DNA of 64,000 bases, from the NCBI GenBank assembly GCA_016212965.1, contig JACRDA010000346.1, positions 1 through 64,000 of the forward strand. Direction: 5' to 3'. Positions 1-1,256 of the stretch are shown piece after piece. The number at the start of each line of letters is the position of its first letter. Positions within the stretch are counted from its first letter, which is position 1. The notes under the pieces were generated by a model. That model searched no databases and was not told where the DNA came from. It saw only the letters and a program-made list of their open reading frames with translations. This DNA comes from Myxococcales bacterium. GTDB taxonomy: Bacteria; Myxococcota_A; Polyangia; Polyangiales; Polyangiaceae. A program made the position numbers and the translations under genes.

Positions 1-92
1 CCGCACTCGCACCCGCCCGCGCGCCCGCCCGCGCGCCCGCACGCGCACCCGCCCGCGCGCCCGCCCGCGCGCCCGCCCGCGCCCGCCCCATC
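1..92. repeat. Low-complexity C/G tract of cccgcgcgcccg units
   Basis: The first 92 bases consist almost only of short cccgcgcgcccg-like units with occasional ca/ac interruptions. Read on the minus strand, such tracts encode Ala/Gly-rich linkers of the kind seen in several proteins of this window (for example near 28.65 kb), so this may be the cut-off end of a linker-containing gene lying to the left. No complete reading frame can be judged. Confidence 0.7.
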
Positions 93-101
93 GCCCGAGG
101 G

Positions 102-150
102 GGGTCATCCCCGAAATTCTCCCCAACAGCGGGAGTAAACTGGGGGATGG
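102..150. repeat. REP-like repeat, first (decayed) doublet
   Basis: Positions 102-123 hold a 22-base unit (gggtcatccccgaaattctc plus cc) that recurs exactly at 153-174. Its would-be inverted partner, about 130-150, is recognisable but degenerate. The element therefore looks like an older copy of the clean hairpin just downstream. Placement next to a RAYT gene fits REP/REPIN biology. Confidence 0.6.
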
Positions 151-152
151 GT

Positions 153-203
153 GGGTCATCCCCGAAATTCTCCCGGTTTTTGGGAGAAATTCCGGGATGA
201 CCC
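153..203. repeat. REP-like inverted-repeat doublet (REPIN-like hairpin)
   Basis: The 22-base arm at 153-174 is followed by a 7-base loop (ggttttt) and an inverted arm at 182-203; the arms match except at the centre (about two mismatches). The shape, two REP units head to head beside a RAYT transposase, is that of a REPIN. The unit also has lower GC than its surroundings. Whether it is dispersed in the genome cannot be seen here; no further copy was found in the window. Confidence 0.65.
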
Positions 204-311
204 CCCCGGTGCGCGGCGTGTCGGCCCAGGCGCCACCCTCTCGAGACCTGGGCGGCCCGCCGGCGGGCGCCGACGGCCGCCGGGCGCGGGCGCCGCAAGC
301 CCGCGATCTAC

Positions 312-1256
312 ATGCGCCACATGTGCGGCACGCGCCGTGCTGGCGCCGTCGGCATGGACGCTCTCTGCTATCACGCGGTCGCGCGCGTCTCGGGCGGGCC
401 GCCCCTCGACGACGAGGCGATCGCGCCGCGCCTGGGGCGTGGGCTGCGCCTGGCGTTGCCGGCCGCGCTCGGCGCCGTGCTCATGCCGGACCATCTGCAC
501 GTCGTGACGCTCGCGGCCGGATCCGACGACGCCCGCCTGTCGCTCGTGCGCGTGCTGAGCGGCCTGCGCCGGAGCAAGGGCCTGTGCGCAGAGGTGCGCT
601 GGGAGACGGTGCCGCTCCCCGCGCAGGTGCCGGACGCCCACCACGCGCTGCGGCAGGTCCGGTACGTCGCGCTCAATCCGTGTCGCGCCGGGCTTGCCGT
701 CGACCCGCTCGCATGGCCGTGGTCGACCCACCGCGACGTCGTCGGCGCGATCGCCGAGCCGTGGGTGACGCAGGCGCGGCTCGCGGCCGTGCTCGGCCGG
801 CCCGTCGCAGGCTTCGCCGTCTGGTTCCACCGCTACGTGTCCGCGGATCCGTCCGTGCACGTCGCCGGCACGCGCCCGCCGGTCGCAGCCGCGCCGCTGC
901 TGCTCGCGCACGAGCCGCTCGCGGTGATCGCGGCCGCCGCGGCCGCCGCGTCGCGGGCGTACGTCGCGGACATCCGTCGCGCGTCGCAGACGCGCCGCCT
1001 CTTCGTTCACCTCGCCGTGCACGCCGGCTGGCGCGAACGGCGCTCGGTCGCGCGCGCCTGCGGCGTCAGCGTGAGCGCCGTCGGCAAGCTCCTGCGCCAG
1101 CCCGTCGCCGGCCTCGACGCGGCCGCCCTCTGCCTCGGCGACGCGCGCCTGCGCGTGCTCGCGCGCGCGGCTCCGCATGACCCCCGCGGGGCTGCTCGCC
1201 GGCTCACCGCTCCGGGAACAGGGTCGGCGGCGGCAGCGGCAGCGACGACGGAATGA
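312..1256 (+). CDS. REP-associated tyrosine transposase (RAYT, IS200/Y1-like)
   Basis: Single-strand HUH endonuclease-like transposase of the kind thought to mobilise or maintain REP sequences. The HUH motif is visible as MPDHLHV (residues about 58-64). The conserved RAYT block YVALNPCRAGL starts near residue 118 and its Tyr is a likely catalytic residue; the typical WPWS follows. The C-terminal part (about 215-290) resembles a DnaA-type helix-turn-helix, with DIRR and ARACGVSVSAVGKLL. Starts at 312, 321 or 354 are all possible; the protein begins a few residues before the expected YH strand. The 3' end overlaps the convergent lipoprotein gene by 53 bases, which suggests a recent junction. 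REP-like repeats lie just upstream. Confidence 0.8.
   Translation: MRHMCGTRRAGAVGMDALCYHAVARVSGGPPLDDEAIAPRLGRGLRLALPAALGAVLMPDHLHVVTLAAGSDDARLSLVRVLSGLRRSKGLCAEVRWETVPLPAQVPDAHHALRQVRYVALNPCRAGLAVDPLAWPWSTHRDVVGAIAEPWVTQARLAAVLGRPVAGFAVWFHRYVSADPSVHVAGTRPPVAAAPLLLAHEPLAVIAAAAAAASRAYVADIRRASQTRRLFVHLAVHAGWRERRSVARACGVSVSAVGKLLRQPVAGLDAAALCLGDARLRVLARAAPHDPRGAARRLTAPGTGSAAAAAATTE

Follow-up and report, generated by a model that had tools for sequence, protein, structure and literature searches.

Among the systems described so far, those closest to the locus reported here are the TnpA-Y1 transposases of subclass 2.1, for which the passages of PMC6006769 on this subclass give a DnaA-tailed architecture with a C-terminal HTH related to Bac_DnaA_C, HTH_23 or HTH_28. 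This subclass is probably the same as the TIRYT group of PMC3733652. The passages on subclass 2.1 also state that automatic and manual searches found no REP-like sequences beside its genes, and five residues with which TnpA-REP of E. coli reads GTAG are named elsewhere in that paper (PMC6006769). REPs usually number over 100 per genome, according to the abstract of PMC2817692. The types of protein and hairpin treated below are known already, and a link of such a transposase to sigma54 or competence has not met us in print. In the open-licence literature, outside which most subscription journals lie, no report was seen among the matches listed that ties a TIRYT, RAYT or Y1 transposase to sigma54 or competence, that puts comM, radC and ssb under sigma54, or that describes sigma54-driven natural transformation in Myxococcota. 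In the one paper where RAYT and RpoN occur together, rpoN serves as a qPCR reference.

The window, by which we mean the whole analysed stretch of DNA, spans positions 1 to 64,000 of contig C248, which has 81,390 bases and belongs to a Myxococcales genome, G000, whose assembly of 8.99 Mb in 502 contigs is 86% complete. Base 1 of the window is base 1 of the contig; the view leftward ends there, and 101 bases separate the contig end from the hairpin element. Closest to G000 is the genome of a congener, G001, and both assemblies are fragmented. The features at the left end of the window are listed in Table 1. No Rfam match was obtained in bases 1-2000 of the window, and a PHROGs search gave weak hits only. 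On balance, and with modest confidence, we favour the reading that the gene encodes a hairpin-associated transposase of the RAYT superfamily that belongs to a sigma54 competence regulon and has its own low-copy family of hairpin doublets, at the same place in two species. The DnaA-like C-terminal domain and the sigma54-type element common to competence genes had been missed by the initial annotation. For us, the regulation of the gene is the point of interest.

Table 1. Features at the left end of the window, with the evidence for each
Feature	Position	Strand	Evidence
GC-rich tract of degenerate CCCGCN-type repeats, at the end of the contig	1..101		Like tracts adjoin most dispersed copies in G001
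Hairpin doublet element, family A, 102 bp	102..203	+	11 full copies aligned; folding as ssDNA
Hairpin 1, imperfect; its right arm is the "decayed" copy of the initial annotation	102..152	+	Alignment; folding z -1.55
Hairpin 2, nearly perfect	153..203	+	Folding z -5.4
CGCCACC, possible half activator site (weak)	231..237	+	Inferred; G001 ortholog without it
Sigma54-type -24/-12 element CGGCACGCGCCGTGCT	326..341	+	14 of 16 weighted points
HuH/Y1 transposase, 300 aa	354..1256	+	H47, H49 and Y104 invariant in 19 of 19 aligned sequences
Catalytic domain, about residues 1-147, TnpA-REP fold	354..794	+	Predicted model against TnpA-REP 4er8_A: Z 13.6, rmsd 2.9, 142 aligned
C-terminal domain, residues 187-265, DnaA domain IV fold	912..1148	+	Predicted model against 3pvp_B and 1j1v_A

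The gene most likely starts at 354. A start at 312 is less likely, because the G001 ortholog has no ATG or other start codon at the corresponding place and because a promoter-like element lies at 326-341; the relatives begin near the place of 354. The product carries the HxH and Y motifs that had led the initial annotation to place a HUH/RAYT gene directly after the repeats, and the same arrangement is found in G001. H49 and Y104 are separated by 55 aa, against 58-67 aa as the range of medians across several TnpA-Y1 subclasses. The NCBIfam model REP_Tyr_transpos (NF047646) gives the window protein 32 bits, below its cut-off of 80, and matches all 19 aligned sequences at E 0.1 or better, while a profile built from the 19 sequences matches PDB 4er8 with an E-value of 1.9e-9. 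The structure was predicted with a mean pLDDT of 89.5, residues 271-300 being low. In this predicted model, the catalytic part aligns with TnpA-REP (Table 1) and residues 187-265 align with DnaA domain IV (3pvp_B, Z 9.7, rmsd 2.0, 79 aligned; 1j1v_A, Z 9.1). At the sequence level an HTH is seen as weak HTH_23 matches in 3 of the 19 sequences, and the window protein has no Pfam match. Five residues read GTAG in E. coli TnpA-REP; in the 4er8 profile alignment W94 alone finds an equivalent, and the other four are not kept. As judged from the model, the protein is a HuH/Y1 transposase of the RAYT superfamily, with HuH and Tyr set in a TnpA-REP fold, and its predicted architecture is that of TnpA-Y1 subclass 2.1 (TIRYT), given the DnaA-domain-IV-like C-terminal domain.

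The 19-row profile finds matches at 1e-10 in 99 of 377 genomes drawn from the phylum. The strongest are full-length relatives (E from 4e-113), whereas many of the weaker matches cover mainly the catalytic core. One copy, L015 (G014:C123:202-1092), has lost the HuH motif (TPAAIELL) with its frame open and is possibly non-catalytic. This type of transposase is also carried by L051, L052 and L061, the first two with the promoter element; these records are titled Klebsiella pneumoniae MAGs, probably wrongly.

Upstream of the gene, the 22-base unit that had been reported in three copies was recovered at 102-123 (+), 153-174 (+, identical) and 182-203 (-, two mismatches), and not one match to its inner 20 bases turned up when the window was dinucleotide-shuffled 100 times. 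There is also a fourth arm, which has diverged, at roughly 131-151. The unit is not confined to this locus: G000 has it at two further places (C460 and C433, with 2 and 3 mismatches; 0 for the reversed-pattern control), and G001 holds nine full copies of the element. The repeat unit proper is one conserved 102-bp doublet of two hairpins, family A, with two full copies in G000 and nine in G001. All 11 could be aligned end to end with a mean column identity of 88%, and partial copies lie at G000:C433 and G001:C103. The folding energy of the doublet as single-stranded DNA is -32.8 kcal/mol, compared with -17.3 +- 2.6 in shuffles (z -6.1). Hairpin 2 folds strongly on its own, and for hairpin 1 alone 11 of 200 shuffles fold as well (Table 1). 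The arm once taken as decayed is of the same kind in all 11 full copies; the decay reading is wrong, and the turnover deduced from decayed and intact doublets finds no support. The two 22-mers described as a clean inverted pair turned out to be the two arms of one hairpin and not two REPs.

The doublet next to the transposase gene is found at the same place in G000 and G001, inside DNA of 92% identity. Most G001 copies adjoin GC-rich hexamer tracts and a left extension of up to 85 nt, which is present, at least in part, beside seven of the nine and is lacking at the copy beside the transposase gene. The left extension was also seen without hairpins, at G000:C394:3422-3502, where GC-rich hexamer repeats directly follow, and at G001:C542:180-231. 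The two hairpins of family A are too palindromic to be oriented (direct 0.62-0.80 vs inverted 0.67-0.82). The doublet ends in GGGGTCAT, which agrees with GGGGWSAS at seven of eight positions. At G001:C618, around 547-708, we noticed a repeat of about 110 bases that is unrelated to the element and is dispersed over many places in G000 and G001.

Empty sites were searched with flank probes from 10 element loci, which led to orthologous places for four. For C379 of G001, the orthologous G000:C452 lacks an 882-bp block in which the element lies together with GC-rich tracts and a small reading frame; no more than CC is shared at the junction. At the C360 locus, other DNA stands at the orthologous place in G000. 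The element of G000:C460 is absent at the G001 site, yet the right flank is not homologous, and for G000:C433 just one flank was located in G001. A clean insertion of the doublet alone was thus found at none of these four places. A role of the doublet as an uptake sequence was considered and is held unlikely, because its copies are few. It may be a by-product of the activity of the enzyme and need not serve the cell.

G001 has a second transposase of the same kind (on C535), with a different hairpin family, B, on both sides. No transposase gene of this kind other than that of the window was detected in G000 (E 0.01). Family B occurs at 18 places in G000 and on nine contigs of G001 (E 1e-4 or better). 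Among 37 neighbouring hairpin pairs from 18 loci, the spacing was 52 nt in 22 and 63 nt in 15, and the direct orientation was the closer one in 28, with four ties and five inverted. Tandem arrays of family B with a 115-bp period (52 + 63 nt) were observed at G001:C535 (L124) and at 18 places in G000, among them L088, L090 and L107, and array length seems to vary between G000 and G001 places with similar flanks. We also scanned the flanks of relatives. A strict scan gave 11 hairpins in 21 loci vs 0.4 in shuffles, and a looser one 109 vs 38.8 over 45 loci. Since two alike hairpins were found by the looser scan in only six of the 45 loci (0 in shuffles), paired hairpins beside these transposases are not established as general. 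When the two flanks of each gene were compared (43 loci), inverted repeats reached a z over 4 in 15 and direct repeats in 14; of the 17 loci with either type, two of them duplicate records, direct beat inverted in 14. The flanks of the window gene share neither an inverted nor a direct repeat, the best inverted z being 0.3 with an upstream flank of 353 bp to the contig end.

Between doublet and gene, the element CGGCACGCGCCGTGCT lies 12 nt before the start codon. In relatives, a TGGCACG-N4-TTGCW, which we take to be the sigma54 -24/-12 consensus, recurs upstream of the gene at a distance of about 28 nt from the start codon. A gene was counted as having the element when at least 13 of 16 points were reached at -31 to -26 from an in-frame start. 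By this test, 22 of the 39 loci of the first set, the window gene included, scored at least 13, and 19 scored at least 14. As background, 2 of 918 window ATGs scored at least 13 at that distance, one being that of this gene, and so did 1 of 2367 ATGs of other stretches; each background ATG offers one start, whereas the tested genes have several possible in-frame starts, a freedom that the 30 controls from weaker Y1 relatives had equally. Scored with the identical distance and threshold, 17 of 30 further family members had the element (16 of 29 after removing one duplicate; 15 at 14 points or more), compared with none of the 30 weaker Y1 relatives of the phylum. Altogether, 69 relatives were tested, one of them counted twice, and 30 do not reach 13 points, including the tested copies of G014 and G316. 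The gene for sigma54, rpoN, is present in both G000 and G001.

The composition of the sets was as follows. Five records of genes already included (L165, L171, L174, L175 and L176) were left out of the 39 loci, as were L166 and L167 (which repeat the genes of L009 and L006), L177 and L188 as pieces at contig ends, any shorter record of a gene already represented, and L015, L049, L050, L056 and L059, the last from the same contig as L178, which was kept. L053 and L168 are one gene and were both kept as misses; L192, with no testable start, was counted as a miss. The further set comprises 30 of the 35 strong profile matches without a locus, two already in and three partial ones being omitted; L195 in it is the same gene as L051, and several of its genes have paralogs in the first set. 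For the 30 controls, a part of the weaker matches (about 3e-18 to 1e-12) was taken, going down their list.

The motif can also be read as a dyad. Its GCA-N7-TGC anchor alone was present in 32 of 61 loci taken regardless of score, and at the sigma54-preferred places around it the counts among these 32 were G 28, T 17, A/T 21 and T 20; in the further set alone (n=15) they were G 13, T 5 and A/T 9. The neighbours of the anchor are asymmetric and, at the level of sequence, fit sigma54. Because of this asymmetry, it appears less likely that the -28 element is only a dyad or an RNA hairpin. A separate dyad close to TGACGGACGTCCGTCA was found in 12 of the 30 further members (11 of 29 after deduplication), at a distance of 67-103 nt upstream, compared with 0 of 30 controls (shuffles 0.05). 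It is a putative site, sitting where a sigma54 activator would bind.

This dyad led to genes other than the transposase. With up to two mismatches, it occurs at 3 to 27 places in G157, G233, G353, G267, G102 and G089, compared with 0 to 3 for its reversed form; it is no commoner than the reversed control in G000 (2 and 2) and G001 (3 and 3). Among the sites listed, 44 dyad loci were read, and in 37 of them a -24/-12 element of at least 13 points lies within 130 nt on a side; in two, the divergent comEC/radC pair L258 and L295, both sides carry it. The survey passed over a few two-mismatch sites and those whose connection with this transposase was already established, and 30 of the 37 downstream proteins were compared with Pfam. 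ComM (Mg_chelatase with ChlI) was identified in four of the 30 (L273, L287, L296, L302), ComEC (Competence) in three (L258, L285, L299), RadC in four (L258, L276, L290, L297) and SSB in three (L259, L265, L288). The remainder comprised two alpha-amylase-like proteins, two weak matches below the cut-off and 12 without a family. Two more downstream proteins are the transposase itself (L257, L262). ComM, ComEC, RadC and SSB have roles in natural transformation. The competence-type genes behind dyad and element come from five genomes (G267, G353, G233, G089 and G102).

The other genes behind dyad and element encode alpha-amylase-like proteins, an Rpn-nuclease-like group without Pfam match, TPR-like proteins and two further groups of look-alikes (L274, L293, L272, L275, L281, L260, L261, L283, L286, L289, L292, L270, L284 and L294); new competence-linked genes are possible among them. 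At L295:317-1063 (minus strand, G233), a further Y1-like protein with a THVHLL motif and no Pfam match lies behind a dyad and a 16/16 element.

A search was also made in five genomes of the window's own family, where comM and comEC were chosen by Pfam domain irrespective of the dyad. A strong comM match was present in four of the five (G000, G001, G014 and G007) and comEC in three (G001, in part, G014 and G007); comEC was not found in G000, whose assembly completeness is given above. All four comM genes, that of G000 included, have the element (15, 15, 15 and 14 points), and in G000 and G001 it stands exactly 12 nt before an ATG, as at the window gene. The three comEC genes have it as well (13, 14 and 14 points), in what is a weaker test with many possible in-frame starts. 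Upstream motifs in these flanks are of another type (GGCGATCGCC, TGGCGGCCGCCA, CGCCACC and kin). They occur at -81 to -116 in 7 of 7 comM and comEC flanks and within 190 nt in 6 of 12 transposase flanks of the family, including four of five from G025, a genome in which the assumed starts of L049 and L050 were misplaced by 21 and 9 nt. The motifs were picked after inspection of the flanks, and one of them also turns up in 11% of shuffled flanks and in 1 of 17 control flanks. At the window gene, a single weak CGCCACC half lies at -123, and its G001 ortholog has none of the motifs searched.

In the reading we favour, a sigma54 (RpoN) promoter would drive the transposase gene as part of a regulon that would also drive comM, comEC, radC and ssb in the phylum. 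During competence, the enzyme would be made together with ComM, RadC and SSB and might bind the hairpins when the DNA is single-stranded, on imported or displaced strands. Nicking and rejoining of hairpins would then move or multiply doublets, and incoming DNA might perhaps be edited. That the enzyme binds and cuts the doublet as ssDNA is suggested by analogy with E. coli TnpA-REP; use of the promoter, membership of this gene in the regulon, work on imported or displaced strands and a benefit to the cell are what we infer. The sigma54 consensus has a usual distance to the transcript start, from which the start is predicted about 2 nt before the start codon (near 352). With a promoter so near the start codon, the mRNA would have almost no leader, an unusual situation that counts against this explanation. 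The same holds for the relatives that do not reach 13 points, the weak half site of the window gene and the missing one of its G001 ortholog, the dyad counts in G000 and G001 that do not exceed the reversed control, the comEC gene not found in G000, and the failure of the flank probes to show a clean insertion of the doublet alone.

We also considered that the locus is an ordinary REP/RAYT system, in which a classical TnpA-REP spreads the element as a REPIN through GT[AG]G tags. The REPIN-like label of the initial annotation holds insofar as dispersed hairpins do exist and adjoin a RAYT-superfamily gene, and the best point in its favour is an internal GTGG, overlapping the stem, that precedes hairpin 2 in 10 of the 11 full copies. 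At the outer feet, however, GT[AG]G is present on one side in two copies and on neither side in nine, the full copies are few in both genomes, and most of the GTAG-reading residues of the E. coli enzyme are not kept. This leaves a REPIN reading of the repeat doubtful and an ordinary REP/RAYT system quite unlikely. In another explanation, the doublet has some other function (a transcription terminator, an RNA hairpin or a MITE that belongs to a different transposon) and lies beside the gene by chance. It would fit the seven G001 copies that adjoin, near GC-rich tracts, a left extension absent at the transposase gene, as well as the copy that came or went inside the 882-bp block. We regard it as very unlikely, given that the doublet keeps its place beside the gene in two species and that the second such transposase in G001 has another hairpin family on both its sides.

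More weight is due to a TIRYT/TIRtron as understood in 2013. In that case terminal inverted repeats would flank the gene, competence would play no part, and the -28 element would be an ordinary regulatory feature or a site bound by the enzyme itself. The protein architecture is alike, as far as the account of subclass 2.1 goes (PMC6006769), the end of the doublet is a single position off GGGGWSAS, and the motif is partly palindromic (GCACG-N3-CGTGC), which makes a repressor site possible. On the other hand, no inverted copy lies downstream of the gene, the motif neighbours are asymmetric and sigma54-like, and comM, comEC, radC and ssb bear the element too. We therefore consider this explanation unlikely, and prefer to see the gene as a member of a sigma54 competence regulon.

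The preferred reading touches two old open questions, namely the host role of RAYT-type domesticated transposases and the spread of REP-like hairpins. A promoter in common with natural-transformation genes suggests a concrete role, the processing of ssDNA during competence, and it points to a sigma54 competence regulon in Myxococcota together with a small list of candidate genes. More tentatively, the whole lineage of domesticated Y1 transposases in Myxococcota could consist of sigma54-controlled competence enzymes that cut and join hairpins of imported ssDNA and leave the doublets as a trace; we see this as possible but short of probable. If true, such a lineage-wide role in competence would account for the persistence of RAYT-like genes without insertion-sequence behaviour.

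Compared with known systems, the locus resembles TnpA-Y1 subclass 2.1/TIRYT in its HuH and Tyr core, its DnaA-domain-IV-like C-terminus and its different GTAG-reading residues. TIR families of TIRYTs can be self-complementary and occur in dimers or clusters, as does the doublet here, according to the passages on them in PMC6006769 and PMC3733652. It differs in that the window gene has no downstream inverted repeat, the doublet lying upstream with one mismatch to GGGGWSAS, and in the sigma54-type element common to competence genes, of which the TIRYT descriptions in those passages make no mention (PMC6006769, PMC3733652). With E. coli TnpA-REP (4er8) it has the catalytic fold and residues in common, and the window gene is not a multi-copy IS in G000. 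In contrast to the REPs and REPINs of E. coli, the element here mostly (9 of 11) has no outer GT[AG]G, its stems are longer and its copies few, and the enzyme has an extra C-terminal domain. In the CRP-S/Sxy natural-competence regulons of Pasteurellaceae, comM, comEC, radC and ssb are switched on together. The set of genes is common to the regulon proposed here, whereas control is apparently by sigma54 and a dyad activator site, and a Y1 transposase is among the members.
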